Origin: an uncultured Geobacteraceae bacterium | GTDB taxonomy: Bacteria; Desulfobacterota; Desulfuromonadia; Geobacterales; Pseudopelobacteraceae | Assembly (NCBI GenBank): GCA_903930585.1 | Contig: CAIYZD010000586.1 | Coordinates: 1-57,530 of the forward strand | Length of the DNA: 57,530 nt | Direction: 5' to 3' | Part shown: piece by piece, positions 17,306-44,070 of the stretch | Position numbering within the stretch: position 1 is the first letter of the stretch | Layout: each line of letters begins with the position of its first letter | Program-made: the position numbers and the translations under genes | The notes under the pieces: model-generated | What the model was told of the DNA's origin: nothing | Database searches by the model: none | The model's input: the letters and a program-made list of their open reading frames with translations, nothing else

Positions 17306-17315
17306 GCGGACAGCT

Positions 17316-20445: not shown

Positions 20446-20451
20446 GTCGTC

Positions 20452-27207: not shown

Positions 27208-27232
27208 CGCATTTCACCACATAGCGTATCAG

Positions 27233-27284: not shown

Positions 27285-27341
27285 TTACAGGCTTACGGTG
27301 TCAGGCTTGGACTGACACACATAACTCAAAAGGAGCTTAAC

Positions 27342-28220: not shown

Positions 28221-28236
28221 ACCAGGGTGGCGGATT

Positions 28237-28716
28237 ATGAAACTGATAACCACGATTGTTGCAACATTGTTGTTGGGAATATCGATTGCCCTGACCTCGG
28301 CTGCGGAACTGAAACTCCGCAAGCCGGGCTCCGGTGACAAGTGTCCGGTCTGCGGCATGTTCGTAGCCAAGTTTCCTGATTTTGCCGCACAGGTTCAGTT
28401 CAAGGACGGCAGCACCGCGCATTTTGACGGCACCAGGGATTTGTTCGCGTATTATCAGTCAATATCCCGCTATGCGCCGGGTAAATCCCTGGCGAATGTC
28501 ACGGCCGTTTTCGTTACCAGTTACTATACGTTGGCACCGATTAACGGACTTACCGCCTGGTATGTGGCCGGGAGCGATGTGTATGGCCCCATGGGGCGGG
28601 AATTGATCCCGTTTGCCCGGGAGAGCGAGGCGCAGGAGTTCAAGAAAGATCATAAGGGCACGTCAATTCTTCGTTTTAAAGAGGTCACTCAGGCTATCGT
28701 CAAGGGGCTTGATTGA
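28237..28716 (+). CDS. NosL-family periplasmic metal-binding protein
   Basis: A 159-residue protein with an N-terminal signal peptide (about 22 residues, ending TSAAE). The mature part holds CPVCGMFVAKFPDF, the NosL signature whose cysteine and methionine bind Cu(I) in the nitrous-oxide reductase accessory protein. No lipobox cysteine follows the signal, unlike many NosL lipoproteins. No nosZ is in the window, so the role is not N2O reductase maturation. It is co-transcribed with an ABC transporter, suggesting metal or redox handling in the periplasm for this operon. Confidence 0.8.
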   Translation: MKLITTIVATLLLGISIALTSAAELKLRKPGSGDKCPVCGMFVAKFPDFAAQVQFKDGSTAHFDGTRDLFAYYQSISRYAPGKSLANVTAVFVTSYYTLAPINGLTAWYVAGSDVYGPMGRELIPFARESEAQEFKKDHKGTSILRFKEVTQAIVKGLD

Positions 28717-28718
28717 AT

Positions 28719-29027
28719 ATGCGGCTCTCGACGGCATATCTCGGTGTGACTGGTCTCCTGTTGATACTCCTGACGGGGCTTGTACTTCATGCCTTTCAGG
28801 AGCGAAAGAACGCAGGGCCCCTGTTGTCTCAAATGGCCGACATGGTAAACCGGCTGAATCTGACCGACCTCTGTCTCTTTACCGAAGCAAGTTACACCCG
28901 GCATCTTGCCATGACCGACCTCAATACGCCGTTTCAGGATTCTCCTTTTTCGTTCGAGCATTTTCCGACCGGCGCACTGGTTTTACCGCCGCCTCATTTA
29001 GGGAGGAACCGTGGCCGGGTCGATTGA
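28719..29027 (+). CDS. small single-span membrane protein
   Basis: A 102-residue protein with one N-terminal membrane segment (about residues 5-27, rich in Leu) followed by a mainly polar periplasmic tail. I do not recognise a family. It starts three bases after the NosL-like stop and overlaps the ABC permease start by 17 bases, so it is almost surely translated with them. It may be an accessory subunit of that transporter. Confidence 0.6.
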   Translation: MRLSTAYLGVTGLLLILLTGLVLHAFQERKNAGPLLSQMADMVNRLNLTDLCLFTEASYTRHLAMTDLNTPFQDSPFSFEHFPTGALVLPPPHLGRNRGRVD

Positions 29028-30144
29028 GCGACAGCGACATATCCTGGATTTTACCCTGGCTTCGCTCCTGCGCCGAAAAGGCAAAAACGGCGCGCTGCTC
29101 TCGGTCTATACCCTGATCATTTTCATTCTCTCTTCAGTGTTGTTCTTTACTCATGCCCTGCATCGGGAAGCGGAGACGGTGTTGCAGGGAACTCCCGAGA
29201 TCATTGTCCAGCGTACGCTCACCGGACGCTACCAGACTATTCCGCTTTCCTATGCCGATACCGTCAGGGGGATTCGCGGTGTCGGTTCGGTCGAGCCACG
29301 ACTCTGGGGGTATCATTACGACGGCAATACGCTGGCCAACTATACCATCGTGGTGCCGGGCGAAAACGCGCCGCCGCACGGCAGTATCGATATCGGCAGC
29401 GGCATCGCCAGAGTACGTTCGGCGAACGAAAAAGATATCATGGGATTTACCGGTTTTGACGGCAAGCCGCATGCTTTTTCCATTCGCAGCGTCATTTCGG
29501 CTGAATCGCAGCTGGTGTCTACCGATCTGATTCTGATGTCGGAGCATGATTATCGAGCATTTTCCGGTATCCCCGCTAACCATGCCACCGATCTGGTGTT
29601 GAAGATCCGTAATCCAAAGGAGTACACCACCATATCCGAAAAGATCGTTCGTCTGCTTCCCGATACGCGCCCCATCGTGCGGAACGAAATTCTGCGCACC
29701 TACAACGCGGTGTTCAGTTGGCGTTCCGGACTGGTGCTGGCGATTTTCAGCGCCGCGGCGCTGGCGTTTGCCATTTTTGCCTGGGATAAAGCGAGCGGGC
29801 TTTCCGCCGAAGAGCGGCGGGAGATCGGCATCCTTAAAGCGGTAGGATGGGAAACGTCAGACATTCTGTTCATGAAATTCTGGGAGGGTGCCGCAGTCTC
29901 TCTGACCGCTTTTCTTCTCGGTGTTGTGCTGGCATATGTGCATGTGTTTTTCACGGCGTCCTGTCTGTTCGCCCCGGTACTCAAAGGATGGTCAACACTC
30001 TATCCGGCCTTCAAGCTTGTTCCGGTCATCAGTTTCGGCCAACTGGCCACCACCTTTCTGCTTACCGTGGCGCCGTACGTTGTAATAACCATCCTGCCGT
30101 CATGGCGGGCAGCGACCATCGATCCCGATGCGGTGATGCGGTAA
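29011..30144 (+). CDS. FtsX/MacB-type ABC transporter permease
   Basis: A 377-residue permease. One membrane segment near residues 30-50 is followed by a large extracytoplasmic domain (about 55-240). Three more segments lie in the C-terminal FtsX domain. The coupling helix EERREIGILKAVGWETSDI, typical of FtsX, LolC and MacB, is present. The GTG start has GGGAGG four bases upstream. Such permeases act mechanically on periplasmic or membrane substrates and do not form import channels. Its ATPase is encoded 12 bases downstream. Confidence 0.85.
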   Translation: MAGSIERQRHILDFTLASLLRRKGKNGALLSVYTLIIFILSSVLFFTHALHREAETVLQGTPEIIVQRTLTGRYQTIPLSYADTVRGIRGVGSVEPRLWGYHYDGNTLANYTIVVPGENAPPHGSIDIGSGIARVRSANEKDIMGFTGFDGKPHAFSIRSVISAESQLVSTDLILMSEHDYRAFSGIPANHATDLVLKIRNPKEYTTISEKIVRLLPDTRPIVRNEILRTYNAVFSWRSGLVLAIFSAAALAFAIFAWDKASGLSAEERREIGILKAVGWETSDILFMKFWEGAAVSLTAFLLGVVLAYVHVFFTASCLFAPVLKGWSTLYPAFKLVPVISFGQLATTFLLTVAPYVVITILPSWRAATIDPDAVMR

Positions 30145-30155
30145 CGGAGTAGCGG

Positions 30156-30842
30156 ATGATCAGGTCGTGTGACATATCGAAAGTGTTTAATGCCGGTAAA
30201 CCTAACGAATATAAAGCGCTACGAGGCATCTCCGTGGATATCGCCCTGCAGGAAGTAACTATTCTCAAGGGGCCGAGTGGCTCCGGAAAGACGACTCTTT
30301 TGGGAATACTGGGGTGTATGGCGCGTCCCACGACCGGCAGGATTTTTTTTGATGAGCGTGAAATTACCAGTCTCCCCGAGCGGTTTCTGACCGATATTCG
30401 TCTCAAGACATTCGGTTTCATCTTCCAGCAGTTTAATCTGATCAAGGGAATTACGGCGCTTGACAATGTCATGGTGCCGGCTTTTCCAACCGGAGAAAAA
30501 CATGCCTCCCTGAAAAAACGGGCTTTCGAAACTCTGGAGCTGTTCAATATGGGGCACAAGGCCGATGCAAAAACGGAATGGCTATCAGGAGGAGAAGCGC
30601 AGCGTGTTGCCATAGCGCGAGCCCTGATCAACCGGCCTTCGATCATCATTGCCGATGAGCCGACCGCCCATCTTGACACCCGGCTTTCCCACGAATTCAT
30701 GGAGATCATGGCTACGCTCAAATCGGAAGGAAAAACCATAATCCTGGCCAGTCACGATCCGATTGTCTATGACTCCGATCTGGGGGACCGGATTATTGAA
30801 ATGCGTGACGGCCATGTGATTGAGGACGGTAACCTGGCATGA
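30156..30842 (+). CDS. LolD/MacB-type ABC transporter ATPase
   Basis: A 228-residue ATPase with Walker A GPSGSGKTT, Q-loop FQQFNLI, signature LSGGEAQRVAIARAL, Walker B IIIADEPTAHLD and switch histidine in ASHDP. It pairs with the FtsX-type permease just upstream. Its last four bases overlap the next gene. NosL-like, FtsX and LolD genes also travel together in nitrous-oxide and copper-related clusters, which is the only hint to its substrate. Confidence 0.9.
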   Translation: MIRSCDISKVFNAGKPNEYKALRGISVDIALQEVTILKGPSGSGKTTLLGILGCMARPTTGRIFFDEREITSLPERFLTDIRLKTFGFIFQQFNLIKGITALDNVMVPAFPTGEKHASLKKRAFETLELFNMGHKADAKTEWLSGGEAQRVAIARALINRPSIIIADEPTAHLDTRLSHEFMEIMATLKSEGKTIILASHDPIVYDSDLGDRIIEMRDGHVIEDGNLA

Positions 30843-31834
30843 TCCTGCATCCCCAGATTCTGGCCCTGTTCGTCTCATCGCTGCTGATCTGCCTGATGCT
30901 GCTCTACTCATCATGGTACGGCATCCGGATTCTTGGCTCTTGGGACATTGCAAGCGGCAGTGAGCTGCAATTGGCGTTGGAGCGGCGCACCTACCTGATT
31001 TCGACAATCGTTTCCTGTTTTCTGGTGTTCCAGCTGGCGTCGCTGTTTCTGTTTGTCTCGACCACCGACAGTATCTGTAACCTCTTTGTCGGCGCCATGT
31101 GTGCGGTCGGGACTCTGACGGTCAACCATTTCGGCTATCCGGCGCTGCTGCTTAAACTGCTGACGTTTCTGCTGGCCGGACTCTGGCTGCTGCTCAATCA
31201 TCTGGATAATCAGGGGTACGACTATCCGCTGATCAAAGCCAAATATACACTGCTGCTCTTCATGTCCCCGTTCATTCTGGCGGAAACGGTCATTCAGGCC
31301 ATCTATTTCAGCGGTCTGAAGCCGGACATCATCACCTCCTGCTGCGGCAGTCTGTTCAGCTCCGCATCACGAAGCATTGCCTCCGAAGTTGTCAATGCTC
31401 CGCCCCTGTCGATGCTGGCGCTGTTTTTTGTTTCAGCCGCAGTGACGACACTGTGCGGAATCCGGTTTTCCTGTACGGAGAACGGCGGCGTCCTGTTTGC
31501 CGCGGTAAGCGCCTTACACTTCGTGATTTCCCTGGTTGCGGTAGTCTCGGTCATATCGCTCTATATCTACCAGATGCCGTCCCATCATTGCCCCTTCTGC
31601 ATTTTGCAGAAAGAGTACTACTATATCGGCTACCCGATGTACCTGTCCATTCTGACCGCCGCAATTACTGGTGTCGGGGCAGGGTGGACCGCCCGCTATC
31701 GCTCAATCGAAAGCCTGCAGGGTGCCATGCCGGGGATTCGTACGACTTTGATTCGTACGGCGTTACTTTCAATTGCCGTTCTGGTGGCTATTACCAGTTG
31801 TTACCTGCTTTTCACCAGCTTTACGCTGCGCTGA
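30839..31834 (+). CDS. polytopic membrane protein with CPFC motif
   Basis: A 331-residue integral membrane protein with about eight predicted spans. Two cysteine features stand out: TSCCGSLF near residue 169, and HHCPFCILQKEYYYIGYP near residue 253 at the end of a membrane helix. A CxxC at a membrane face recalls VKOR or DsbB-like quinone-linked thiol oxidoreductases, but overall similarity is not evident. I do not recognise the family. It overlaps the ATPase gene by four bases, so it belongs to the NosL/ABC module, perhaps as its redox partner. Confidence 0.55.
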   Translation: MILHPQILALFVSSLLICLMLLYSSWYGIRILGSWDIASGSELQLALERRTYLISTIVSCFLVFQLASLFLFVSTTDSICNLFVGAMCAVGTLTVNHFGYPALLLKLLTFLLAGLWLLLNHLDNQGYDYPLIKAKYTLLLFMSPFILAETVIQAIYFSGLKPDIITSCCGSLFSSASRSIASEVVNAPPLSMLALFFVSAAVTTLCGIRFSCTENGGVLFAAVSALHFVISLVAVVSVISLYIYQMPSHHCPFCILQKEYYYIGYPMYLSILTAAITGVGAGWTARYRSIESLQGAMPGIRTTLIRTALLSIAVLVAITSCYLLFTSFTLR

Positions 31835-31864: not shown

Positions 31865-32581
31865 ATGAGTAATGATACAACAGTTCGTTGCAGTATCGGT
31901 GGCTGTTCCTGCTCGTCGTCATCTGCCGAAGAAAAGCCGTTTCATGTCAAATGGCAGGGGGCGCAACGTGATGTTTTAGGCGGCGACATACGGGGACATG
32001 TGGATCTCGAACCGCTTGCCGCGCTGGAAAATCTGTACGGCCTCGGTCCTCTCGAAGAGGTTAAGGGGGAGATTACAATTATTGACTCCGCCGCGACCGT
32101 TGCCAGGGTCGCTGACGATGGTGGAATTGCCATAACGACCGGTTTCAGTCATCGTGCCTGCTTTCTGGTCTACTCTCAGGTCCAGCGTTGGCAGAAGGTG
32201 GTGCTGCCGGAAGAGGTGATTGATGAAAAAACGCTGGAGACCGCGCTGCCTCAATTGGCTGCCGAATACGGGATAGATTCGTCCCTGCCGTTTCCCTTTC
32301 TGCTGCGCGGTCAGCCGGACCGTCTGGTATTTCACGTTCTCAACAAAACCGATGGTCTGACGCACTCACCGGAATTGCACGAAAAGGCCAAGATCAAATT
32401 CACCCTGGAAGATACGGGGATCGAGGTAATCGGTTTCTATTCATCGGCCCACCGCGGCATCTTTACCCCCGGTCATAGCGCTATTCATATCCATGTGCGG
32501 AGCAAAGACGGCCTGGCATCGGGGCATGTTGACACGTTAAGCTTTCCCGGCGGCATTGATCTTTTTTTGCCGTTCGCGTAA
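31865..32581 (+). CDS. acetolactate-decarboxylase-like protein with Cys-rich N-terminus
   Basis: A 238-residue protein. YGLGPLEEVKGEITIIDS and the C-terminal HIHVRSKDGLASGHVD fit the alpha-acetolactate decarboxylase fold. The three metal ligands are kept as His208, His210 and His221. The first 20 residues (CSIGGCSCSSSS) are rich in Cys and Ser and are not part of the classical enzyme. There is no signal peptide. No acetolactate synthase is near, so decarboxylation of acetolactate is doubtful; a related metal-dependent step on another 2-keto or beta-keto acid is possible. It ends the first transcript of the nitrogenase-like cluster. Confidence 0.65.
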   Translation: MSNDTTVRCSIGGCSCSSSSAEEKPFHVKWQGAQRDVLGGDIRGHVDLEPLAALENLYGLGPLEEVKGEITIIDSAATVARVADDGGIAITTGFSHRACFLVYSQVQRWQKVVLPEEVIDEKTLETALPQLAAEYGIDSSLPFPFLLRGQPDRLVFHVLNKTDGLTHSPELHEKAKIKFTLEDTGIEVIGFYSSAHRGIFTPGHSAIHIHVRSKDGLASGHVDTLSFPGGIDLFLPFA

Positions 32582-32606: not shown

Positions 32607-32636
32607 TTGACAATTCGTTCTACAATATAGTATATA
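32607..32636 (+). promoter_or_regulatory. promoter of the NifK-like operon
   Basis: TTGACA (32607-32612) with TATATA 18 bases on (32631-32636). TTATAGAC lies at 32649-32656, 36 bases after TTGACA, matching the promoter of the NifH-like operon. The core promoter AT pattern (TATAGTATATATACC) also resembles that one. Confidence 0.6.
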
Positions 32637-32687
32637 TACCTACAGATTTTATAGACTTATTAGTAAGAGCCGGTTTCACACATAACA

Positions 32688-32735
32688 GCTAACCAGAGAA
32701 CTGGAGGCCAAGGAATTTTCCTTGGCCTTTTTTTT
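32688..32735 (+). promoter_or_regulatory. leader attenuator element, copy 3
   Basis: GCTAACCAG-AGAA-CTGG forms a four-base-pair hairpin. AGGCCAAGGA then pairs with TCCTTGGCCT (32705-32728) and is followed by eight T. It is the clearest of the five copies and lies 35 bases before the ATG of the NifK-like gene. Confidence 0.8.
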
Positions 32736-32769: not shown

Positions 32770-34119
32770 ATGGTTTCATTTATTGAAAAACCCCGTTTCA
32801 CCTGCCCCCTGGGGGGCGCACTGGCAACGGTCAACGCTCTGCCCAAGGCTGTAGCAATCCTGCATTCATCACAAGGGTGCGGCGGCAACTCCAATGGTGC
32901 AATTCAAGGTGCAGCCGGCCATCTGGGGAGCGGCTATTGCGGTGGTTCTGCAACGCCTGCCAGCAGTATCAGTGAAAAACAGATTGTTTTCGGCGGAGTT
33001 GCCCGTCTGGAAGAACAGTTGAACAGTACGGCAGAGCTGATCAACGCGGAATTATTCGTCATCATAACCGGATGTACTGCAGAAATCATCGGCGATGACG
33101 TTGCGTCAGTTGTTCGTGGTTACAACGACGAGGGGGTGGATCGGCCGCCGGTCATCTTTGCATCCGGAGCGGGATTCAAGGGGAATAGTTACTTCGGGTA
33201 TGATTCCGTTTTGCAGTCCCTGTTTCGTGACTACGTTGTCAAGTCTGACAAGAAAACCAAAGGGAAGGTAAATATCTGGGGTGTTCCACCGTCACTTGAC
33301 GTTTTCTGGGAAGGTAACCTGCTGGAGCTGCGTCGCGTCCTGGAGGGTATCGGTCTTACGGTAAATACATTTTTTACCAATAAGGATTCACTTGCAGAGC
33401 TGAAAGCTTCCGCCAACGCAGAACTGAATATTGTTGTTTCACCGGTAAACGGAGTTGCTGCCGCTGAGGTGTTTAAAGAGGTACATGGTGTAGACCACCT
33501 GATCACCGATCTCCCCATTGGAGCAAAAGCTACCGAAGCATTTCTGCGCGCGGTTGCCGGTCGGCTCAAACTCAAAAAAACGCTGGTGGAAAAATTTCTG
33601 GCCACGGAAAAAGACAATTACTACCATTTTTTCAACCGCATCAGCGACTCGTACGCAGATATCGATCTGCAGCGGTACGCGGTTGTTGTTGCCGATACGA
33701 CCTATGCCGTCGCGCTCACCCGGTTTGCTTCCAAGGAACTGGGGTGGCTGCCGAAACTGGTTGCCATTACGGATACGGTGGAAGATTACCAGGAGGCCGA
33801 TTTGCGATCCCTCTTTGCGCAAGACCTCGTTAATCCGGATGAAACCGTCGTTTTTGAAACCGATACCAGCCAGATGAAAGAGCGGCTCTTTGAGCGCTGG
33901 CCAAAGCCGACCGGTGGCAAATATGATCGTCCCTTCAGTCCGGCCTTTGTGATCGGAAGCCGTCTTGATTCAGAATTTGCCGAAAGTATCAAGGCCGGCC
34001 ATCTGTCAGTCACCTTTCCCATTTCGAACCGATTTGTTCTGAGCCGCGGCTATGCCGGGTATCATGGGGCGCTGCACCTGACGGAAGATATCTTCTCGGT
34101 GCTGGTGGCGAAACGGTAA
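32770..34119 (+). CDS. NifK-like subunit of nitrogenase-like enzyme
   Basis: A 449-residue protein of the NifDK/NifEN/BchNB superfamily. The three cysteines matching the NifK ligands of the P cluster are Cys12 (FTCPLGGALA), Cys37 (SSQGCGG) and Cys102 (ITGCTAEIIGDD). Their spacing of 25 and 65 is close to that of NifK (25 and 58). Near the end, GYAGYHGALHLTEDI matches the closing NifK segment. It is shorter than NifK because the N-terminal extension is missing, as in NifN and other group IV proteins. AAGGAG precedes the ATG. It presumably pairs with one or both NifD-like proteins encoded immediately downstream. NifN is the main alternative, but no nifB or second K subunit is near. Confidence 0.85.
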   Translation: MVSFIEKPRFTCPLGGALATVNALPKAVAILHSSQGCGGNSNGAIQGAAGHLGSGYCGGSATPASSISEKQIVFGGVARLEEQLNSTAELINAELFVIITGCTAEIIGDDVASVVRGYNDEGVDRPPVIFASGAGFKGNSYFGYDSVLQSLFRDYVVKSDKKTKGKVNIWGVPPSLDVFWEGNLLELRRVLEGIGLTVNTFFTNKDSLAELKASANAELNIVVSPVNGVAAAEVFKEVHGVDHLITDLPIGAKATEAFLRAVAGRLKLKKTLVEKFLATEKDNYYHFFNRISDSYADIDLQRYAVVVADTTYAVALTRFASKELGWLPKLVAITDTVEDYQEADLRSLFAQDLVNPDETVVFETDTSQMKERLFERWPKPTGGKYDRPFSPAFVIGSRLDSEFAESIKAGHLSVTFPISNRFVLSRGYAGYHGALHLTEDIFSVLVAKR

Positions 34120-34167: not shown

Positions 34168-35682
34168 ATGAGCTATCTACACCTTAAAGTACCACCAACA
34201 CGAGATGAACGGCTGAAACCCTGCGGTGCCTTTGGCGGCACGATAGACGATCTGGTACATGGTCATAAAGAGGGGTGTCTTGGCTCAAACGGCCGTACTT
34301 TTGCCCAGGCAACCGGTTGCCAGTTAAACCTTGCCATGGGTATGGCCGCCTCGATACCCAACACGGTTGTCATCTATCATGGTCCGGTTGGATGTGGAGC
34401 CGGTTCGCTGGCCATTGCCGGGCTCTCGAAGCAGAATCAGCTTGCGCGAGGAAATATCGATGCAATCGGTCGGGTCTGGATGTCAACAAATCTGAATGAA
34501 GTGGATGTTATCACCGGCGGCGAAGAGAAGCTGAAACAGGCTATTCTGGAAGCAGAAGAGCGTTTCCATCCGCACGCGATCTTTATCGGCAATACCTGTG
34601 TGCCTGCCATCACCGGCGATGACATAGATAATGTCGCCGGACAACTGCAACCGGATGTTAAAGCAAAGATTATCCCGCTTCATTGCGAAGGTTTTCGCAC
34701 CCGGTTCGTGGCAACAGCCTACGACATCGTTTATCACGGTATTCTGCGCTACCTGCTGGGGGACGACAAAGCCGACTGGCGACCGGAGAACGAGGAAGAA
34801 CTGCGCGACTATCAGGAACGGAGCAAGCGAACCGTCAACCTGCTGAACGTTGGTTCAATGGGTTATGTGGATGAGGTGGAACTGGTGCGCCTGTTGAACG
34901 CCATCGGTCTTGAAGCAAATGTCTACCCCTGTTTCTCCCCGCCGGACAAATTTGTCAAGGTGCGTGATGCCGCTCTCTCAGTCAGTATCTGTGCCACCCA
35001 TGACGATTATTTTGTCGAGCATCTGAAAGAACTGTATGACATTCCTTACGTGCTCAACACGATCCCGATCGGTTCAGATAACGTACGGCTCTGGCTGTTG
35101 GAAATAGCTGACTTCTTTAACATCCGCGAAAAGGCACTCGAAGTGATCGAAGCTGAAGAAGCGGAACTTCGAGAAGCGCTCAAGCCTTTGCGTAAATTCT
35201 TCGAGGGGAAAACTACCTTTGTCAGCACCGGCGAGATCAGAGCGGGCGCGCAGGCCGTCATGCTGGAGCAGGACCTCGGCATGAAGGTGCTTGCCATCCG
35301 TACCCATCATTATGACAAGTTTGGCGAAGTCGTCTTCGATCATTTCAAGGGACGTGATGATATAACCATTAACGTGGCTACCGCTCAGCCCTTTGAACAG
35401 GCCAATCTGCTTAACCGGCTGAAACCTGATATTTTCCTTGGCCACGCCGGCAGTAACGTCTGGGCGGCCAGACAGGGATTCCCGGTACTGCCGATCTATG
35501 GCCCGGTCAACAGCTATATGGGGTACAAGGGGGTTTTCGAAGTTGCCGTCCGCCTGGAACGGATGCTTCAGAATACGAATTACTACAACACGCTGGGTGA
35601 TACCACGACGCTCCCCTTCAAGGATTTCTGGTATGACGAGGATCCGTATTCCTATATCCAGCAGACACAGGACGCGGCCTGA
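34168..35682 (+). CDS. NifD-like subunit 1 of nitrogenase-like enzyme
   Basis: A 504-residue NifD homologue. Cys51, Cys76 (HGPVGCGAG) and Cys144 (GNTCVPAITGDD) match the P-cluster cysteines 62, 88 and 154 of Azotobacter NifD. Cys275 (LSVSICATH) aligns with the FeMo-cofactor ligand Cys275. The other ligand, His442, is Met451 here (NSYMGYKG). NifD Arg96, Gln191 and His195 align with Ala84, Val181 and Tyr185, although the CEGFR motif between is kept. This is therefore a nitrogenase-fold reductase with a metal cluster held by one cysteine, but not a dinitrogenase. AGGAGG precedes the ATG. A close paralogue follows 31 bases downstream. Confidence 0.9.
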   Translation: MSYLHLKVPPTRDERLKPCGAFGGTIDDLVHGHKEGCLGSNGRTFAQATGCQLNLAMGMAASIPNTVVIYHGPVGCGAGSLAIAGLSKQNQLARGNIDAIGRVWMSTNLNEVDVITGGEEKLKQAILEAEERFHPHAIFIGNTCVPAITGDDIDNVAGQLQPDVKAKIIPLHCEGFRTRFVATAYDIVYHGILRYLLGDDKADWRPENEEELRDYQERSKRTVNLLNVGSMGYVDEVELVRLLNAIGLEANVYPCFSPPDKFVKVRDAALSVSICATHDDYFVEHLKELYDIPYVLNTIPIGSDNVRLWLLEIADFFNIREKALEVIEAEEAELREALKPLRKFFEGKTTFVSTGEIRAGAQAVMLEQDLGMKVLAIRTHHYDKFGEVVFDHFKGRDDITINVATAQPFEQANLLNRLKPDIFLGHAGSNVWAARQGFPVLPIYGPVNSYMGYKGVFEVAVRLERMLQNTNYYNTLGDTTTLPFKDFWYDEDPYSYIQQTQDAA

Positions 35683-35713
35683 TTCATAATAAGGATTACT
35701 ACGGAGGGATATC

Positions 35714-37228
35714 ATGAGTTATTTGCATCTTAAAGTACCGCCGACACGAGACGAGCGGCTGAAACCCTGTCACGCCTACGGCGGAAATATGGACGGTCTT
35801 ATTCACGGCCAGAAGGAAGGGTGTCTGACCTCCAACGGTCGCACCTTTGCTCAATGTACCGGCTGCCAGTTGTTGCTGTCGGCAGTTATGGCAGCTTCAA
35901 TTCCCAATACCGTCTTGATTTTTCACGCTCCTGTCGGCTGCGGCTCCTGTTTTCTCATGTTTGCCGGTGTCACAAAAGAATATCAGACCACTCGCGGCAA
36001 CGAAGATTCTGTCGGTATGATCTGGTTATCGACCAACCTGAACGAGATTGATGTCATTACCGGTGGAGAAACAAAGCTGGAGCAGGCCATTATCGAGGCG
36101 GAAGAGCGCTTCCATCCCCACGCGATCTTTGTTGCCAATACCTGCGTTCCGGCAATTATCGGCGATGACATTGATAATGTTGCTTCCCGGCTGCGGCCCC
36201 AGATAAACGCCAAAATTATTCCGTTATACTGTGAGGGCTTCCGCACACGCTTTGTGGCGACCGCCTATGATATCGTCTACCATGGTATTCTACGCTTCCT
36301 GCTCGGTGACGACAAGGTAGACTGGAAGCCTCAGGGTGAGGTTGAACGACGCGAATACGAAGAGCGCTGCAAGCGAACCGTCAATTTGCTCAATGTCGGT
36401 TCAATGGGATATGTTGACGAAAAAGAGTTGACACGACTGCTCAATGCCATTGGATTGGAAGTCAATATTTATCCATGCTTTACACCGCCAGAGAAATTTG
36501 TCAAAGTGAAGGATGCGGCCCTGTCGGTCAGTATCTGCGCCACCCATGACGACTATTTTGTCGAGCATTTGAAAGAGTTGTATGGTATCCCCTACGTTCT
36601 CAACACAATTCCGATCGGGACCGATAACGTGCGGCTCTGGTTGCTGGAGGTTGCCGACTTTTTCGGTATCCGTGAGAAGGCGCTGGGAGTAATCGAAGCG
36701 GAGGAAGCGGAACTGCGTGAAGCGCTCAAGCCGTTACGTACATTCTTTGAAGGGAAGACAACCTTTGTCAGCACCGGAGAGATCAGGGCAGGAGCCCAGG
36801 CGACAATGCTGGAGCAGGATCTGGGCATGAAGGTGCTTGCCATTCGCACCCATCATTACGACAAGTTCGGCGATGTTGTCTTCGATCATTTCAAGGGGCG
36901 TGATGATGTGACCATCAATGTCGCAACTGCTCAGCCGTTTGAACAGGCAAATCTGCTCAATCGTTTGAAGCCGGATATATTCCTTGGTCATACCGGTAGC
37001 AATGTCTGGGCAGCGAAACAGGGATATCCGGTTCTGTCTATTTTCGGACCGGTTAACAGCTATATGGGGTATAAAGGGGTCTTTGAGGTTGCTACCCGCC
37101 TGGAGCGCCTGCTCCAGAACCCGGAATTTTTCAAGACACTGGGAGAAACCACCACACTCCCCTTTAAGGAACATTGGTATGATGAAGATCCGTATTCCTA
37201 TATTCAACAGACACTGGATGCGGCGTAA
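35714..37228 (+). CDS. NifD-like subunit 2 of nitrogenase-like enzyme
   Basis: A 504-residue paralogue of the preceding protein, alignable without gaps. It keeps Cys51, Cys76, Cys144 and Cys275, and also Met451. It adds Cys48 (AQCTGC) and Cys79 (VGCGSC) beside the P-cluster-like site, plus Cys219. Differences concentrate in residues 20-105 (about 34 of 86) while residues 225-504 differ at about 32 of 280, by hand count. The pattern suggests duplication followed by change of the cluster or substrate region, not decay. It may form an alternative enzyme with the single NifK-like protein, or replace NifK in a D1-D2 pair. ACGGAGG precedes the ATG. Confidence 0.9.
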   Translation: MSYLHLKVPPTRDERLKPCHAYGGNMDGLIHGQKEGCLTSNGRTFAQCTGCQLLLSAVMAASIPNTVLIFHAPVGCGSCFLMFAGVTKEYQTTRGNEDSVGMIWLSTNLNEIDVITGGETKLEQAIIEAEERFHPHAIFVANTCVPAIIGDDIDNVASRLRPQINAKIIPLYCEGFRTRFVATAYDIVYHGILRFLLGDDKVDWKPQGEVERREYEERCKRTVNLLNVGSMGYVDEKELTRLLNAIGLEVNIYPCFTPPEKFVKVKDAALSVSICATHDDYFVEHLKELYGIPYVLNTIPIGTDNVRLWLLEVADFFGIREKALGVIEAEEAELREALKPLRTFFEGKTTFVSTGEIRAGAQATMLEQDLGMKVLAIRTHHYDKFGDVVFDHFKGRDDVTINVATAQPFEQANLLNRLKPDIFLGHTGSNVWAAKQGYPVLSIFGPVNSYMGYKGVFEVATRLERLLQNPEFFKTLGETTTLPFKEHWYDEDPYSYIQQTLDAA

Positions 37229-37237: not shown

Positions 37238-38535
37238 ATGACCGGTCTGCGCGGGATTGCGAGAGCCCTCCATTCTCGTAACTTTCGCCTGTTTGTTGCC
37301 GGTCAGGGGTTTTCACTGGTTGGCACCTGGATGCAGCAGGTTGCCATGAGCTGGCTTGTCTATCGTCTGACCGGTTCAGCCATACTGTTGGGTGTCGTCG
37401 GTTTTTCCAATCAGATTCCAAGCCTCTTTTTTACACCATTGGCCGGTGTTCTGGCAGATCGATGGGATCGCAGGCGACTCCTCATTATTACCCAGTGTCT
37501 GGCAATGCTCCAGGCAGCCATACTGGCAACAGTTGTAATTGCCGGAGTTGTGCAGGTCTGGCATGTTATACTCCTGAGCGTTGTTCTCGGTATCATCAAC
37601 GCATTTGATATTCCGATTCGCCAGTCATTTGTGGTACTGATGGTTGACCGGCGGGAGGATCTGGGAAATGCCATTGCCCTTAATGCTTCACTGTTCAATG
37701 CTGCCCGCCTGATCGCCCGTCGATTGCCGGAATAGCCGTTGCCGTCGTGGGTGAAGGGGTTTGCTTTTCGATCAACTCCGTAAGCTTTTTGGCGGTGGTT
37801 GCCGCGCTGGCCGCCATGCGCCTTACCCCGCGACCGGAGAGAAATTATCCGCGTCGTGTCTGGCCTGAACTGCGCGAAGGGATAACGTACTCGTTCGGAT
37901 TCAGCCCGATCAGGAAAATACTGCTGCTGGTGGCTCTGGTCGCCCTGGCCGGGATGTCATATGCGGTCCTCATGCCGGTCTTTGCCCGTGAAATATTGCA
38001 TGGCGGATCACAGACATTCGGTTTTCTCATGTCGTCGGCCGGGAGCGGCGCGTTTTTAAGCACCCTGTTCCTGGCATCACGCCGGTCGGTGCTTGGACTT
38101 GGGAGGGTTATTTCCGTTTCGGTCGCCTTGCTGGGTATCGGTAATGCGGTGTTTGCCTGTTCCACGTACCTGCCGCTTTCCTGTGGCGCATTGGCAATAG
38201 TGGGGTTTGGCGCAACCGCCACGATGGCTTCCTGCAACACCGTTCTTCAAACAATTGTGGATGAGGACAAACGGGGAAGGGTTATGAGTTTCTTCTCCGT
38301 GGCGTTTAACGGGGTGCTCCCGTTCGGCAGTCTTCTGGCAGGAACACTGGCCGGGACTGTCGGACCTCGTCAGACGCTGCTGCTCGGAAGTCTTGGCTGT
38401 TTTGCCGGGGCGGCTCTGTTTGCCAGACATCTGCCGAACATACGGAAACATGTCAGGCCGATCTATATCCGGCTCGGAATTATTGATGAAAACAGAACGC
38501 CCGGTACGGAAGCTGTTTCGCATGAACGTGGATAA
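37238..38535 (+). pseudogene. MFS transporter (EntS-like), broken by a one-base deletion
   Basis: Two adjacent frames (37238-37735 and 37747-38535) are the N- and C-terminal halves of one 12-span major facilitator of the EntS/DHA type. The first frame reads ...AARLIARRLPE and stops. Adding one G near 37715 (ATCGCC to ATCGGCC) restores the usual RLIGPSIAGIAVAVVGEGV. All other parts look intact, including VGTWMQQVAMSWLVYRLTGS at the start. Either the gene is a recent pseudogene or this is a sequencing error in a G/C run. It would export a product or intermediate. It starts 9 bases after the second NifD-like gene. Confidence 0.85.
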
Positions 38536-38559: not shown

Positions 38560-40791
38560 ATGAGTGACTCTCCTGAAATACGTGTGAATCCGGCGACACC
38601 AGTCTATCTGGATTACAACGCCACCACACCGGTCGACCCGCTGGTGGTTACGGAGCTTCTCCCCTGGCTGAGCGAAGATTTTGGCAACCCTTCCAGTAAT
38701 CATCCCTACGGTCAGCGCACCAAACAGGCGGTTGAACGGGCACGAACCGCTCTGGCGAATGTGCTGGGGTGTTCTCCTGCTGAAATCGTCTTTACCAGCG
38801 GTGGTACCGAGGCAAATAATCAGGCGCTTATCGGTGTGGCGCTGGCCAACAGTGGACGTGGCAGGCACATCATTACCTCGGCCGTCGAACACCCGGCAGT
38901 GCTCAATCCGCTGAATTGGCTGGAGATGCACGGTTTCACCGTGACGATTCTGCCGGTGGACGGCACCGGCAGGGTTGATCCCGAAACGGTGCGGCAGGCC
39001 ATTACCGGTGAGACGATCCTGATCAGCATCATGCACGCCAATAATGAAGTCGGTACCATCCAACCGTTGGCCGAGATCAGTGCCATTGCCCGGAAACATG
39101 GCGTCTTGCTGCATACGGATGCCGCCCAGTCGTTGGGGAAAATCCCGGTCCGGGTTGATGAACTGGGAGTGGATCTGCTGACGGTGGCCGGTCACAAACT
39201 GTATGCTCCGAAAGGGGTCGGTGCTCTCTATGTCAGGAACGGGGTTAAAGTAAATTCGTATCTGCATGGCGCCGGACATGAGGGGGGGCGCCGGGCCGGA
39301 ACCGAGAATGTCCCGTATATCGTTGCGCTCGGCAAGGCGGCTGAACTGGCCGGAGAGCGACTGGCAGCGGAGGGATCCCGTCTTCGCGAATTGCGCGACC
39401 ATTTTCACGCCAGACTCGGCGAACTGGTTGGCGGAGTCCTGCTGAACGGCCACCCGACCGAACGCCTGCCCAATACCCTGAATGTCAGTTTTGGCGGTGT
39501 GATCGGTTCGGAACTTCTGGAGCATACTCCGGAGATAGCCGCTTCTACCGGATCTGCCTGTCACGACGGGTGCGGCGAGTTGTCCGGTGTGCTCAAAGCC
39601 ATGGGGGTGACCCGCGCACAAGGGTTTGGTGCGGTACGATTCAGCCTTGGTCGCCAGACTACTCTCGAAGAACTTGATCGTGCCGCGGCTCTCATTGCCG
39701 CACGGGTAACAGAGCTGCGCGCTACGAATATTCGCGGCAGCGTGGCCCCTGTTCAGGCCGGCTTGACGACGCTTTCTTCCTGCGGCGGTTGCGCGGCAAA
39801 ACTGAGTCCTCAGGACCTGGCCCTGGTGCTGAGCCGGTTACCCGGCATTACCGATCCCAACGTCCTTGTCGGCACTGCAACCTCCGATGATGCCGCGGTC
39901 TACCGGGTGAACGACCAGCTTGCTATTGTGCAGACAGTGGACTATTTTACTCCGGTGGTTGACGATCCTTACACCTACGGCCAGATCACCGCTGCCAACG
40001 CTCTTTCCGACATCTATGCCATGGGAGCCGAACCACTCTTTGCCCTCAATATCGTCGGCTTTCCCGCAGAAAGTCTGCCGCTGGAGGTGCTGACCAGGAT
40101 TCTTCAGGGGGGTGCCGACAAGGCGGCAGAGGCGGGTATCGGTATCATCGGCGGGCATACCATCATTGATGCCGAACCGAAATACGGACTGACCGTCACC
40201 GCCGTCATTCACCCCGGCAAGGTCATCAGCAATGCCGGAGCACGCGCGGGTGACCGTCTGATTCTGACCAAACCACTCGGTCTCGGCATAATCACCACCG
40301 CGCTTAAACAGGGCAAACTATCCGAAGCTGCGCTTGTCGAGGCTACGGCCGTGATGACGACGCTCAACAAAGCTGCCGCAGCGGCGATGGTAGCTGTCGG
40401 GGTCAATGCCTGTACCGATGTGACCGGTTTTGGCCTGCTCGGACATCTGTTGGAGATGGTACGTGGCAGTGGTGTCGGCGCACAGATCCATGTTGGCCGG
40501 ATACCGGTTCTTGAAGAAGCCAGGAGTTTGGTGCGCCAGGGGATCGCACCGGGAAGCAGTCGCCGCAATCTGGAGTTTTTACGCGAACTGTTGGATCTGT
40601 CCGAGGGAATCAGTGAGGATGATCTGCTGATTCTTGCCGATGCCCAGACGTCGGGAGGGCTTCTGATTGCCGTTCTTCCCGAGAAGGTGGAGCAGCTCAA
40701 AGCGGAACTGATGCGTAACAATGTGCCGATTTTTGCCGAGATCGGCGAGATTTTGACTGATCACGGCAGTCGAATATTAATCACGCCGTAG
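38560..40791 (+). CDS. cysteine desulfurase-selenophosphate synthetase fusion (NifS-SelD)
   Basis: A 743-residue fusion. Residues 1 to about 385 are a NifS/IscS-type PLP cysteine desulfurase with the PLP lysine in VAGHKLYAPKG and the catalytic loop cysteine in STGSACHDGC. Residues 400-743 are SelD with the glycine-rich start SSCGGCAAKLSP, GTATSDDAAVY and GGHTIIDAEPKYG. Codons are ordinary Cys, not UGA, at the SelD active site. The joined enzyme could release selenide from selenocysteine and activate it as selenophosphate in place. No selA, selB or selU is in the window. The position in the nitrogenase-like operon suggests supply of S or Se to its metal cluster or product. Confidence 0.92.
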   Translation: MSDSPEIRVNPATPVYLDYNATTPVDPLVVTELLPWLSEDFGNPSSNHPYGQRTKQAVERARTALANVLGCSPAEIVFTSGGTEANNQALIGVALANSGRGRHIITSAVEHPAVLNPLNWLEMHGFTVTILPVDGTGRVDPETVRQAITGETILISIMHANNEVGTIQPLAEISAIARKHGVLLHTDAAQSLGKIPVRVDELGVDLLTVAGHKLYAPKGVGALYVRNGVKVNSYLHGAGHEGGRRAGTENVPYIVALGKAAELAGERLAAEGSRLRELRDHFHARLGELVGGVLLNGHPTERLPNTLNVSFGGVIGSELLEHTPEIAASTGSACHDGCGELSGVLKAMGVTRAQGFGAVRFSLGRQTTLEELDRAAALIAARVTELRATNIRGSVAPVQAGLTTLSSCGGCAAKLSPQDLALVLSRLPGITDPNVLVGTATSDDAAVYRVNDQLAIVQTVDYFTPVVDDPYTYGQITAANALSDIYAMGAEPLFALNIVGFPAESLPLEVLTRILQGGADKAAEAGIGIIGGHTIIDAEPKYGLTVTAVIHPGKVISNAGARAGDRLILTKPLGLGIITTALKQGKLSEAALVEATAVMTTLNKAAAAAMVAVGVNACTDVTGFGLLGHLLEMVRGSGVGAQIHVGRIPVLEEARSLVRQGIAPGSSRRNLEFLRELLDLSEGISEDDLLILADAQTSGGLLIAVLPEKVEQLKAELMRNNVPIFAEIGEILTDHGSRILITP

Positions 40792-41395: not shown

Positions 41396-41423
41396 AAATA
41401 GATGCTCGTTGCAAGGGGTAACG

Positions 41424-42887
41424 ATGGCTACTCGTAATTTGTTACATGATCCGGTCTGGCAAGCTGCCGAGCTGGGACTCGCACTACCCGACTCACTGCA
41501 CGCCGTTTCCGTCGCGTTGCCGCGCTGGCAGGATGTGGTCGGTTATGAGGAAAAATGGCCTGACGTGGTCAGCAGGTTACAGTGCGGGTATCCCCGCTTT
41601 GTCATACACCGGCTGGTGCAGGAACTGGCACACGTTATCGGTGCAGGACAGCCGTGCCTGCCGTTTCCCTCGCGACACACGGCGCAGCAGTGCGTGAGCT
41701 TTATACATCGGCAGAGTGGTGCCCCGGCTCATGTCGTCGAACATAACGGGCACTACGCTGTCGTTACAACTGATGCCGGCTATGACAATCTCAAAGCTTT
41801 CTGGCAGCATACCGGCCTGATCGTTTCTACCCGTCGTGCCGAATCGGTTTTACATGGTGCGCCGGTGGCTCTTCATGACGGGCGGGAAGTTCGCGACTCA
41901 TTGCGCCGTCAGTTGGCAGAGCTGTACGATTGTGCCGAAGACGATGTGTTTTTGCAGCCTACCGGTATGGCGGCCACGTTTGCCGCTTTGAGAGCGGTTA
42001 TGCGGCGAACGCCGGGAACGGCAACCGTTCAGGTTGGTTTTCCGTATGTGGATACCCTCAAGCTCCAGGAAAAATTTGGACATGGCGCTACACTGCTGCA
42101 TGATCTTACCAGTTGTGCCGCCGATCTGCGCGAGCTGCTGCAGCGAGCCCCGCTGGCTGGATGCTTCAGTGAAATACCGGGGAATCCCCTGCTTGGCTCC
42201 GCTGATCTACGGGAGATAACTCCGATACTGCGGGAGTTCGGAATTCCGCTGGTTGCCGACGATGTGGTGGCAACCCCGCTGAATGTCGATCTGGGGCCGT
42301 ATGCAGACCTGATTGCCACCAGTTTGACCAAATATCTTGTCGGTACCGGCGACGCCATGGGGGGAGCACTGATCTGTAATCCCCGTTCGCCGTATCATGC
42401 TGAACTGAAGGGTATCGCCACATCACTGCATGAGGAGTTGCTCTGGGTCGAGGATGCCGTGGTACTTGAAAGGCACATCGGCAGTTTTCCGGAGCGGATG
42501 CGGGTGCATAACCGTAACGGCCTGACCATTGCCGAGCGCTTGCGCCGACATCCCGGTGTGGAACAGGTCTGGTATCCCAAGTGGTCATTTGGCGAGGCGT
42601 ACGAAGCGGTGCGTCGTCCGGATGGGGGGTGGGGATCGCTGGTTACCTTTCTCCCCAAAAATGCCGAAGCCATGTCCCCGCGTTTCTACGACAATCTGGA
42701 ACTCTGTAAAGGGCCGAGTCTTGGAACCAGCTTTACTTTGGCATGTCCCTTTACCCTGCTGGCACATTACACCGAACTGGAATGGGCAGAATCGTGCGGT
42801 GTGCCGCGCAATCTGATCAGGCTGTCGGTAGGACTGGAAGATGCCGATGATCTGTGGCAGCGTATCGAACGCGCACTTACGGCTTAA
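41424..42887 (+). CDS. PLP-dependent cystathionine gamma-synthase-like enzyme
   Basis: A 487-residue enzyme of the Cys/Met-metabolism PLP family. The C-terminal 330 residues hold the fold: LQPTGMAATFAALRAV, LVADDVVATPLN, the PLP lysine in TSLTKYLVGTGDAMGG, and NLIRLSVGLED at the end. The N-terminal 130-residue extension resembles that of fungal-type cystathionine gamma-synthases. Such enzymes replace the acyl group of O-acylhomoserine by cysteine, sulfide or methanethiol. Methanethiol capture to make methionine would fit a C-S-cleaving reductase in the same operon. AAGGGG precedes the ATG. Confidence 0.85.
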   Translation: MATRNLLHDPVWQAAELGLALPDSLHAVSVALPRWQDVVGYEEKWPDVVSRLQCGYPRFVIHRLVQELAHVIGAGQPCLPFPSRHTAQQCVSFIHRQSGAPAHVVEHNGHYAVVTTDAGYDNLKAFWQHTGLIVSTRRAESVLHGAPVALHDGREVRDSLRRQLAELYDCAEDDVFLQPTGMAATFAALRAVMRRTPGTATVQVGFPYVDTLKLQEKFGHGATLLHDLTSCAADLRELLQRAPLAGCFSEIPGNPLLGSADLREITPILREFGIPLVADDVVATPLNVDLGPYADLIATSLTKYLVGTGDAMGGALICNPRSPYHAELKGIATSLHEELLWVEDAVVLERHIGSFPERMRVHNRNGLTIAERLRRHPGVEQVWYPKWSFGEAYEAVRRPDGGWGSLVTFLPKNAEAMSPRFYDNLELCKGPSLGTSFTLACPFTLLAHYTELEWAESCGVPRNLIRLSVGLEDADDLWQRIERALTA

Positions 42888-42918
42888 AACTATGTATAAC
42901 GAGGGGGGTGCGTCTGAG

Positions 42919-44070
42919 ATGGCAGACACCTTATTTGATTTCGATACGGCGGTTGACCGTGCTGACACCGGCAGTGAAAAATGGAACAAATACAAAGGTC
43001 GCGACATCATCCCGCTTTGGGTCGCGGATATGGATTTCCGCTCGCCACCGGCTCTGATCAAAGCACTGCATGAGCGGGTCGAACATGGTGTGTTCGGCTA
43101 CACCTATCCCGAGCAGGATCTGATCGATATCGTGCAGTCAGCCTTGATTCGTGACTATGACTGGGCGATTGATCCGGAGTGGCTTGTCTGGCTCCCCGGA
43201 CTGGTCTGCGGGCTGAATGTCCTGTGCCGTGCCATCGGTAAAGCGGGAGACGATGTACTGACATTTACCCCTGTCTATCCGCCCTTCATGAGCGCGCCGG
43301 TGCTGACCGGGCGCGCCGTCACCAAAGTGCCGCTGGCGCTCCGGGACGGACGCTGGATACCGGACTTTGTTGCCCTTGAAGCGGCGATTACTCCGCGCAC
43401 CGGACTGCTCCTCCTCTGTAATCCGCACAATCCGGTCGGGCGTGCGTGGAATCGGGAGGAACTGCTGCAGTTCTACGACATTGCCAAGCGCCACAATCTG
43501 GTCATCGGGTCGGACGACATTCATTCCGAGCTGATCCTGGACAAGAATCTGCGTCATATTCCCATCGCCACGCTGGCGCCGGAGATTGCCGACCGTACCA
43601 TTACCCTGCTGGCCCCAAGTAAAACGTACAACATTCCCGGACTCGGCTGTTCGTTTGCCGTCATCAGCAACTCCACTCTGCGCAATCGTTTCAAAAAAGC
43701 CATGGGGAGACTGGTGCCGCACCTCAACCTGTTTGCCTATACTGCCGCCGAATCGGTGTACCGGGACGGTGAACCGTGGCGCGCCGCTCTGCTCGATTAC
43801 CTGCGCGATAACCGTGATCTGGTGGAGCGTGAAATTGCCGCCATGCCGGGACTGAAAATTACCCATGTGGAGGCGACGTATCTGGCTTGGATCGATGCAC
43901 GAGATACCGGTATCGAAAATCCGGGTCGTTTTTTTGAGGATGCCGGGGTAGGGCTGTCAGACGGTGCCGACTTTGCCGCACCGGGCTTTGTCCGGCTCAA
44001 TTTCGGTTGTAACCGGTCACTGCTGGTGGAGGCGCTCAGGAGGATGAGGGGAGCGCTTCATACCAGATAA
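42919..44070 (+). CDS. MalY/PatB-type C-S lyase (cystathionine beta-lyase)
   Basis: A 383-residue fold-type I aminotransferase-like enzyme. The N-terminus DRADTGSEKWNKY and PLWVADMDF is the MalY/PatB signature. The middle has LLLCNPHNPVGRAW and the PLP lysine in LAPSKTYNIPGL. The C-terminus FVRLNFGCNRSLL completes it. Family members split cystathionine, cysteine or S-alkylcysteines into a thiol, pyruvate and ammonia. A strong GAGGGGGG precedes the ATG. Together with the gamma-synthase-like gene upstream it forms a small trans-sulfuration unit. Confidence 0.9.
   Translation: MADTLFDFDTAVDRADTGSEKWNKYKGRDIIPLWVADMDFRSPPALIKALHERVEHGVFGYTYPEQDLIDIVQSALIRDYDWAIDPEWLVWLPGLVCGLNVLCRAIGKAGDDVLTFTPVYPPFMSAPVLTGRAVTKVPLALRDGRWIPDFVALEAAITPRTGLLLLCNPHNPVGRAWNREELLQFYDIAKRHNLVIGSDDIHSELILDKNLRHIPIATLAPEIADRTITLLAPSKTYNIPGLGCSFAVISNSTLRNRFKKAMGRLVPHLNLFAYTAAESVYRDGEPWRAALLDYLRDNRDLVEREIAAMPGLKITHVEATYLAWIDARDTGIENPGRFFEDAGVGLSDGADFAAPGFVRLNFGCNRSLLVEALRRMRGALHTR

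Follow-up and report, generated by a model that had tools for sequence, protein, structure and literature searches.

Two conserved NifD-like genes behind one NifK-like gene in a probable organosulfur reductase cluster of an uncultured Geobacteraceae bacterium

A 57,530-nucleotide stretch of an uncultured Geobacteraceae genome from a sediment-type lineage (GCA_903930585.1, contig CAIYZD010000586.1, positions 1 to 57,530; hereafter, the window) carries an unusual arrangement of a known kind of enzyme: a NifK-like subunit gene (K) is followed by two conserved NifD-like genes in tandem (D1 and D2), the second with an altered active-site gate, and a NifH-like reductase gene (H) lies upstream. The arrangement probably has a role in sulfur assimilation, with the H-K-D1-D2 cluster probably encoding an organosulfur reductase. 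The whole explanation that we favor, at a probability of about 0.5, is an organosulfur reductase of the methylthio-alkane reductase (MAR) type in which two D subunits share one K, D1 and D2 being old paralogues whose C-terminal parts were homogenized in the distant past. The genes and their divergent blocks are as follows.

27342 to 28220, plus strand: H, gene of a NifH-like reductase (Fe protein); Pfam Fer4_NifH 334 bits; NCBIfam nifH 395.5 bits, barely above the cut-off of 394.35.
32770 to 34119, plus strand: K, NifK-like subunit; P-cluster cysteines Cys12, Cys37 and Cys102; best solved relative MarK (9d9u_C, E = 1.4e-75).
34168 to 35682, plus strand: D1, NifD-like subunit; ligands Cys51, Cys76, Cys144, Cys275 and His426; nearer to single-copy homologues in residues 20 to 105.
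35714 to 37228, plus strand: D2, second NifD-like subunit; 82% identical to D1; Cys48, Ala57, Val58, Cys79 and Phe80.
34225 to 34482, plus strand: codons 20 to 105 of D1, divergent block; 33 of 86 residues unlike D2.
35771 to 36028, plus strand: codons 20 to 105 of D2, divergent block; counted from the D2 start, the codons of Cys48, Val58 and Cys79 lie at 35855-35857, 35885-35887 and 35948-35950.

Two D genes on one K

The order around the pair is H, a NosL-FtsX-ABC-membrane module, an acetolactate-decarboxylase-like gene, K, D1 and D2. With spacers of 48 bases (K-D1) and 31 bases (D1-D2), the last three genes appear to be transcribed together, and a leader terminator lies ahead of K. Scores against profile PF00148 (cut-off 28.6 bits) are 240 bits for D1, 248 for D2 and 223 for K. 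Seven matches to this profile were found in the window's own genome: K, D1, D2, two on contig C86, which we read as NifDK, and two parts of one long open reading frame (ORF) on contig C487, which we read as a NifEN fusion. A second K of the window's type was not found by this search of a fragmented assembly.

Homologues were sought in 58 relatives, 141 genomes of the order, 395 genomes of the phylum and 49 loci of GTDB genomes. In this scope, D homologues more than 65% identical were found in three genomes outside the window: a deltaproteobacterial metagenome-assembled genome (MAG; G054), one contig of which bears the labels L028 and L077; Geomesophilobacter sediminis (G067; L029); and a Fibrobacteres MAG with two separate K-D pairs (L071 and L033). 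An earlier note on this DNA had proposed a search for genomes with a single copy, and such genomes exist. No second tandem D-D on one K was found in 41 K/D operons of 32 loci (the window's own excluded; L028/L077 is one contig counted twice, and L047 [K-D-D-K] and L083 [D-K-K-D] are each read as two modules). Two D copies more than 60% identical occur in the window's genome only among the 141 genomes of the order; among the 395 of the phylum, where few candidates were scored per genome, none besides the window's own has one above 47%.

Divergence between D1 and D2

Both ORFs are intact at 504 codons each, and the computed alignment of the proteins is free of gaps, as the earlier note had it, with 89 differing sites. 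By block, differences number 0 of 19 (residues 1 to 19), 33 of 86 (20 to 105), 24 of 119 (106 to 224) and 32 of 280 (225 to 504), close to the hand counts of about 34 of 86 and about 32 of 280 given earlier. The claim that the copies diverged "almost only" near the cluster-binding region is too strong, because 56 of the 89 differences fall outside residues 20 to 105; the other 33 (37%) sit in 17% of the length of D. A Fisher test of residues 20 to 105 against 216 to 504 (33/86 versus 34/289) gave p = 2e-7. For the remaining 14 pairs that can be formed from D1, D2 and four close homologues, the same test gave p = 0.002 to 0.018 in the four other pairs that include D2 and p = 0.059 to 1 in the ten without it, the lowest three of which all involve L033 (0.059 for L028-L033, then 0.062 and 0.082). 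The N-terminal skew is far stronger in D1-D2 than among close homologues.

Decay of the second copy was rejected as a cause: D2 has an open frame, a nonsynonymous-to-synonymous rate ratio (omega) of about 0.05 and all five aligned ligands. Import of its N-terminal block from another homologue was likewise rejected: the best 25 of 78 D sequences are headed by L028 and L071 (62.8%), with D1 at 61.6%, and nothing closer than the close relatives appeared among these 25.

Selection or age of the N-terminal block

Synonymous sites are skewed as well. Where D1 and D2 encode the same amino acid, 36 of 51 codons differ in residues 20 to 105 compared to 122 of 248 in residues 216 to 504 (Fisher p = 0.006); of six other pairs put through this test, one (D1-L071) gave p = 0.038. 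Third positions differ in 17 to 29 of 42 codons per block, and 213 of 404 comparable codons differ. In a pairwise codon model, equal synonymous divergence (dS) with free omega was rejected for residues 20 to 105 (p = 0.0018) and 20 to 215 (p = 0.00026), each set against 216 to 504, and parametric bootstrap replicates reached the observed value in 1 of 150 and 0 of 150 cases, respectively. Equal omega with free dS fits like the free model (p = 0.59 and 0.37) with a single omega of about 0.045, and under every codon model fitted, omega in residues 20 to 105 stays below 0.16. Both copies are under strong purifying selection. The dN/dS check along the pair that the earlier note had proposed favors unequal dS between blocks, with one omega sufficing for both.

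The earlier note offered two causes for the skew, namely selection on the N-terminal part with a kept scaffold or gene conversion of the C-terminal part. The first is not supported, with equal dS rejected and synonymous sites skewed too; what stands of that reading is that there are two conserved NifD-like paralogues and that the P-cluster side and the gate region are altered. Gene conversion can be excluded in its recent form, since synonymous sites have diverged along the whole gene and dS in the C-terminal part is about 1.5. In an ancient form it is the better of the two options, although it is not proven. An older N-terminal divergence under constant constraint is the better account, short of proof, and it calls for no burst of selection.

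Comparison with the single-copy homologues bears on the same point. In residues 20 to 105, D1 differs from L028, L029 and L071 at 23 to 26% of positions and from D2 at 38%, while D2 differs from the same three at 37 to 41%. In residues 351 to 504, D1 and D2 differ at 12%, and either differs from the three at 27 to 30%. Site patterns were scored against three unanimous single-copy homologues. Sites at which D1 and D2 agree against the single copies number 0 in residues 20 to 105, 11 in 106 to 215 and 19 in 216 to 504; those at which D1 agrees with the single copies number 13, 7 and 6, and those at which D2 does, 3, 3 and 9. Simulation along one common tree with the whole-gene stem gave a probability of 0.012 for finding no D1=D2 site in residues 20 to 105. 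The approximately unbiased (AU) test prefers D2 outside D1 and the single copies for this block, rejecting no alternative, and for residues 216 to 504 rejects all four alternatives to D1 and D2 as sisters.

An alternative hypothesis is a recent-enough tandem duplication in which the N terminus of D2 evolved faster under relaxed or positive selection, purifying selection held the C-terminal part, and no recombination took place. It draws on the whole-protein tree, in which D1 and D2 are sisters (100%), joined by L028, L029 and L071 and then by L033, on the 93% support for the same sister pair over residues 1 to 215, and on the failure to reject it for 20 to 105. Branch lengths in the tree of residues 20 to 105 (0.52 for D2, 0.20 for D1) point the same way, as do the states unseen in 42 homologues, which D2 has at nine of the 33 differing sites of this block (20, 48, 57, 58, 80, 82, 92, 93 and 102) and D1 at six (26, 33, 39, 83, 89 and 97). 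Set against it are the codon models, which rejected equal dS with different omega and accepted equal omega, the low omega in residues 20 to 105 in all models fitted, and the lack of any site in this block that unites D1 and D2 against three unanimous single copies. We consider such a history doubtful, if still deserving of some weight.

Type of enzyme

The nearest solved relatives by sequence are MarD for D and MarK for K, both from the methylthio-alkane reductase of Rhodospirillum rubrum. An AlphaFold2 model of D2 (mean predicted local distance difference test score of 84; residues 36 to 46 below 50) has MarD (9fmg_A) as its best structural match (Foldseek E = 5e-34; Z = 37.2, 2.8 Å over 453 residues). 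Residue roles in MarDK were taken from PMC12552129, which, like the other papers given here by PMC number, is cited from an excerpt. Cys51, Cys76 and Cys144 of D1 and D2 align with MarD Cys66, Cys91 and Cys158, and Cys12, Cys37 and Cys102 of K align with MarK Cys32, Cys56 and Cys121. Cys275 and His426 of both D copies align with Cys270 and His429 of MarD, the ligands of its [Fe8S9C] cluster. The five D ligands are invariant in a 44-sequence alignment that includes D1 and D2. The earlier note also raised a D1-D2 heteromer; without K this is unlikely because K retains its three P-cluster cysteines.

Other positions depart from MarD. The equivalent of Arg428 is Gly425 in both copies, and MarD His194, Trp195 and Phe199 correspond to Phe180, Val181 and Tyr185; of these three and His375, only His375 is matched here (His380). 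Arg428, which stands beside His429, is described as a possible hallmark of methylthio-alkane reductases (excerpt of PMC12552129), a group with reduction of 2-(methylthio)ethanol, dimethyl sulfide or ethyl methyl sulfide as a further criterion. The D1/D2 protein is predicted to work like a MAR, yet because of the changes at Arg428, His194, Trp195 and Phe199 it is not placed in the MAR family.

In comparison with NifD of Mo-nitrogenase, scores of 144 bits (D1) and 153 bits (D2) miss the NCBIfam nifD equivalog cut-off of 653.55 bits, and NifD Gln191 and His195, which lie beside S2B, become Val181 and Tyr185 via the MarD alignment. These substitutions also speak against a second alternative, in which the cluster would encode a nitrogenase of group IV-A (Nfa-like), as do the putative NifDK and NifEN that the genome already has and the cysteine synthase context with its common leader described below. 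That alternative finds some backing in Paenibacillus relatives about 49 to 53% identical to D1, given that published Nfa proteins come from Paenibacillus riograndensis and Endomicrobium (excerpt of PMC9147875), and in the NifD-like valine at the gate of D2. We regard it as improbable.

Residues that set D2 apart

One change in D2 is at the gate: residues 57 and 58 are Met-Gly in D1 and Ala-Val in D2. Position 58 is Gly in 22, Ala in 19 and Ser in 1 of the 42 homologues. In nitrogenase, the position of NifD Val70 restricts substrate size. Position 58 aligns with MarD Cys73, and the excerpt of PMC12552129 describes NifD Val70 as having a role in access to Fe6 and as being replaced in MarD by Cys73 and Gln74. 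Two further changes, Cys48 and Cys79, had been singled out in the earlier note as gained in D2 beside Cys51 and Cys76; they are indeed present in D2 only, with Cys51 and Cys76 in both copies. None of the 42 homologues has Cys48; besides D2, a cysteine stands in that column in 2 of 78 D sequences, both of distant subfamilies. Cys79 is not unusual, since 18 of the 42 homologues have it. Residues 173 to 194 are identical in D1 and D2, and 173 to 192 hold the positions of the MarD active-site residues.

The two added cysteines, near P-cluster ligands in sequence, could also fit a noncatalytic D2. It might be a NifE-like maturation scaffold or a regulatory decoy taking the place of D1 in the complex, and these cysteines would then help to deliver the cluster. 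Among NCBIfam models, NifE ranks first for D1 and second for D2, in each case with a score far under its cut-off, and NifEN structures rank directly behind MarD in the fold search with D2. Against such a role, D2 has all five aligned ligands and is identical to D1 over residues 173 to 192, the genome has its own NifEN-like fusion, and close relatives carry a single D per K. A noncatalytic D2 therefore seems very unlikely to us.

Sulfur context

Immediately 5' of K-D, both L077 and L029 have a cysteine synthase gene, which scores 470 bits in the former and 468 in the latter against a cut-off of 351. The stretch of L033 encodes a cysteine synthase, H and NifB, all over their cut-offs, together with a Nitro_FeMo-Co protein and, under their cut-offs, an SsuA-like binding protein, an SsuC-like permease and an SaoA-like ATPase. 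No cysteine synthase was seen by eye among the ORFs beside K-D in L071. In the window, cysteine synthase is not adjacent to K, in contrast to L077 and L029, where it is directly before K, and to L033, where it lies elsewhere on the stretch. The link to cysteine synthase is not new because a published operon of the spirochete Pillotina corrugata has nifK-nifD homologues together with cysteine synthase (excerpt of PMC13067680). Three genes 3' of D2 in the window fall into this context.

41421 to 42887 (range as scanned), plus strand: pyridoxal phosphate enzyme of the cystathionine gamma-synthase superfamily; PF01053 135 bits, cut-off 27; no NCBIfam cut-off met among the matches listed.
42916 to 44070 (range as scanned), plus strand: PatB-family C-S lyase; TIGR04350 451 bits, cut-off 340.
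44095 to 44883, plus strand: ABC permease of SsuC/TauC type; 154.8 bits against the SsuC model, under the cut-off of 347.

A common leader RNA

An RNA leader element, GGCUGACCAG-NNAA-CUGGAGGCC, overlaps an intrinsic terminator and covaries. The consensus read by eye is GGCTGACCAG-NNAA-CTGGAGGCC, running into the terminator. The copies were located as follows.

27151 to 27205, plus strand: leader with intrinsic terminator before H; covariance model R1 72.7 bits (one of the six model-building sequences); terminator scan; promoter-like site at 27047-27075.
27228 to 27285, plus strand: weaker second leader copy before H; R1 32.9 bits.
32683 to 32735, plus strand: leader with intrinsic terminator before K-D1-D2; R1 69.6 bits (one of the six model-building sequences); terminator scan.
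51962 to 52014, minus strand: fourth leader hit of the window, by covariance model.
Outside the window: L136, 1073-1129, 1246-1298 and 3873-3927 (minus strand), and L137, 5033-5095 (plus strand); leader hits by covariance model.

Before K, inspection by eye shows a TTGACA at 32607-32612, where the promoter scan gives no site. When up to three mismatches are allowed, the genome has five occurrences of the motif common to the H and K leaders (0 forward and 1 reverse for a reversed-pattern control), and one copy precedes a row of rrf2, cysK (466 bits), DUF2292 and nifB-like genes on contig C601 of the same genome (L136 1368-3851, minus strand). Rhodanese-domain genes lie beside this row.

R1 was built from six copies of the window's own genome. 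At E <= 0.01 it gave 71 hits, 67 of which are distinct; they are spread over 34 loci, and four hits lie in the window. The R1 alignment is itself fitted to the model; 96.7% of its cells pair, and the covariation score is 0.573, compared to 0.243 in shuffled and at most 0.156 in slid alignments. A leader lies within 1.5 kb upstream in 15 of the 41 K/D operons (14 of 40 with L028/L077 counted once) and within 300 bases in 7. Within the order, the leader shows a strong association with nitrogenase-like genes: at least two leader hits occur in all 25 genomes that have a close D homologue (NFL-D; the model-source genome included) and in 26 of the 116 without one (141 genomes). The leader is also found in Firmicutes loci (e.g., L035, L037, L042, L067 and L070). 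On contig C163 (33.7 kb; bases 12000-22000 read), six leader hits at E < 0.001 lie near a Nitro_FeMo-Co protein and a NosL-like gene.

Rfam 15 at gathering thresholds gave no match for the window leaders, L136, L137, L029, L033, L071 or L077, and in E-value scans of two window leaders all matches were below gathering (best ctRNA_pGA1, 25.4 bits against 45, and MicC, 21.8 against 90). ANTAR antitermination operates at Geobacter nif genes, and ANTAR targets have hexaloops; the tetraloop hairpin of the leader lacks these, which makes an ANTAR target improbable. A leader peptide was rejected: an ORF ending in the motif was read by eye in the H leader, and the K leader has none with a usual start. 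The guanidine-IV variant riboswitch has different associated genes, which sets it apart by description, not by sequence (excerpt of PMC9788692). The nifV motif of Geobacter sits before nifV (excerpt of PMC11109978). No published description of the leader element was found in the open-access literature searched. The leader is a candidate antiterminator or riboswitch of a sulfur regulon.

Proposed explanation

We propose that H, K, D1 and D2 together make up a nitrogenase-like enzyme of methylthio-alkane-reductase type. The reductase, as H2, would hand electrons with ATP to the P-cluster at each D/K interface, from which they would pass to a cluster of [Fe8S9C] type that Cys275 and His426 of D hold in place; there, an organosulfur substrate would be reductively cleaved at its C-S bond for sulfur assimilation. 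D1 and D2 would be alternative, interchangeable catalytic subunits on one K. They may have arisen by an old tandem duplication, after which the C-terminal part would have been homogenized between the copies, later but long ago, leaving the older divergence in residues 20 to 105 or so and partly up to 215. Because their differences include the gate residue (Gly58/Val58) and residues beside P-cluster ligands, D1 and D2 most likely differ in substrate size or in the tuning of electron transfer.

Several observations weigh against this explanation. The Arg428 equivalent is glycine and three further MarD residues are replaced, as set out above, and the substrate and assembly assignments are predictions. 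A second K could be missing from the fragmented assembly (854 contigs). R1 gave no hit in the stretches of the close relatives L033 and L071. As to the age of the divergence, D1-D2 synonymous sites are near saturation, and among nine control pairs in the codon model, L028-L029 gave p = 0.0045 (20 to 105) and 0.015 (20 to 215) in the opposite direction; another, D1-L028, gave p = 0.047 for 20 to 215 in the same direction as D1-D2. The simulated probability of no D1=D2 site in residues 20 to 105 climbs to 0.08 with very short stems, and the AU test leaves D1 and D2 as sisters unrejected for this block (p = 0.31). In residues 106 to 215, the amino-acid tree prefers D1 and D2 as sisters (AU rejects none), in agreement with the 11 versus 7 sites; the synonymous signal there is nonetheless older (p = 0.012), and a single breakpoint is too simple.

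We speculate further that one K and one H serve two D subunits, so that the substrate would be changed by D exchange, perhaps in K2-D1-D2 tetramers, with extra thiolates from Cys48 and Cys79 at the P-cluster of D2 and regulation as a leader-RNA regulon. This we hold to be rather unlikely in full, and no precedent for a modular nitrogenase-like enzyme with D exchange was found in the literature searched.

Genome and remaining features of the window

The assembly (854 contigs) is estimated to be 93% complete with 5% contamination. Contamination as the source of the window contig was ruled out: a search with its leuS stretch recovers 38 of the 39 genomes in the genus (its own included; the others at 74 to 83% identity in the main match), and the contig therefore belongs to the genus. 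NifB-like genes occur on other contigs, none reaching the curated nifB cut-off of 344 bits; the best score 329 (with one internal stop) and 311. The genomes G043 and G056 show as many as 13 D1 matches, a count in which nitrogenase genes are included, and L083, L080 to L082 and other loci of the order carry several K/D modules of different subfamilies within tens of kilobases.

Between H and K, the NosL-FtsX-ABC-membrane module spans 28189-31834; part of it is found in L071, where the stretch ends, and the whole in L080. Directly before the K unit, the acetolactate-decarboxylase-like protein (31865-32581) scores 25.2 bits against a cut-off of 25, and phmmer gave two such ORFs in the loci searched, the window's own included. 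A putative MFS transporter (by reading) follows D2 at 37238-38535 in two ORFs of 165 and 262 amino acids, through a frameshift or an assembly error. At 38560-40791, a NifS-like cysteine desulfurase (under the NifS cut-off) is fused to the selenophosphate synthetase SelD (397 bits, cut-off 125). On the minus strand, 45596-45865 repeats a stretch of an apparent Nudix-type gene (47697-48311, minus strand) about 2 kb away, and a c-di-GMP-I (GEMM) riboswitch lies at 56372-56456 (53.3 bits, gathering 35).

Significance and comparison with known systems

Should both D1 and D2 function with this one K and H, they would constitute a natural experiment: the scaffold, the partner and the reductase stay the same, and the differences concentrate most near the P-cluster ligands and the active-site gate. 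The residues that govern substrate choice in [Fe8S9C] enzymes could then be tested for directly, as could any influence of the P-cluster environment on that choice. The cluster also represents an uncharacterized nitrogenase-like family tied to sulfur assimilation through a common leader RNA.

Among known systems, NfaHDK of group IV-A, from Endomicrobium proavitum and Paenibacillus riograndensis (excerpt of PMC9147875), is likened to the window's cluster via the Paenibacillus D homologues (49 to 53% identity), not via reference Nfa sequences, and the context of the window's cluster does not indicate N2 fixation. The isethionate reductase IsrBHDK of Rhodobacter capsulatus is likewise nitrogenase-like and serves sulfur assimilation. 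According to the excerpt of PMC11423573, IsrD retains a single P-cluster cysteine out of three and has no cofactor cysteine; Cys51, Cys76, Cys144 and Cys275 are all present in D1 and D2, and identity with Isr is excluded because IsrD is without most of the cysteines that they keep. MarHDK of R. rubrum (PDB 9FMG, 9D9U; excerpt of PMC12552129) is the best match to D in sequence and structure and to K in sequence; its six P-cluster cysteines and two [Fe8S9C] ligands all have aligned counterparts in the window. It differs in that its D is only 27 to 31% identical, in the glycine in place of Arg428 and the other residues at MarD 194, 195 and 199, and in having one D per K. Closest of all are the single-copy K-D pairs of L028/L077, L029, L071 and L033, whose D proteins are 68 to 76% identical with the same ligands and whose K lies immediately 5' of D; each has one D per K, whereas the window has two.

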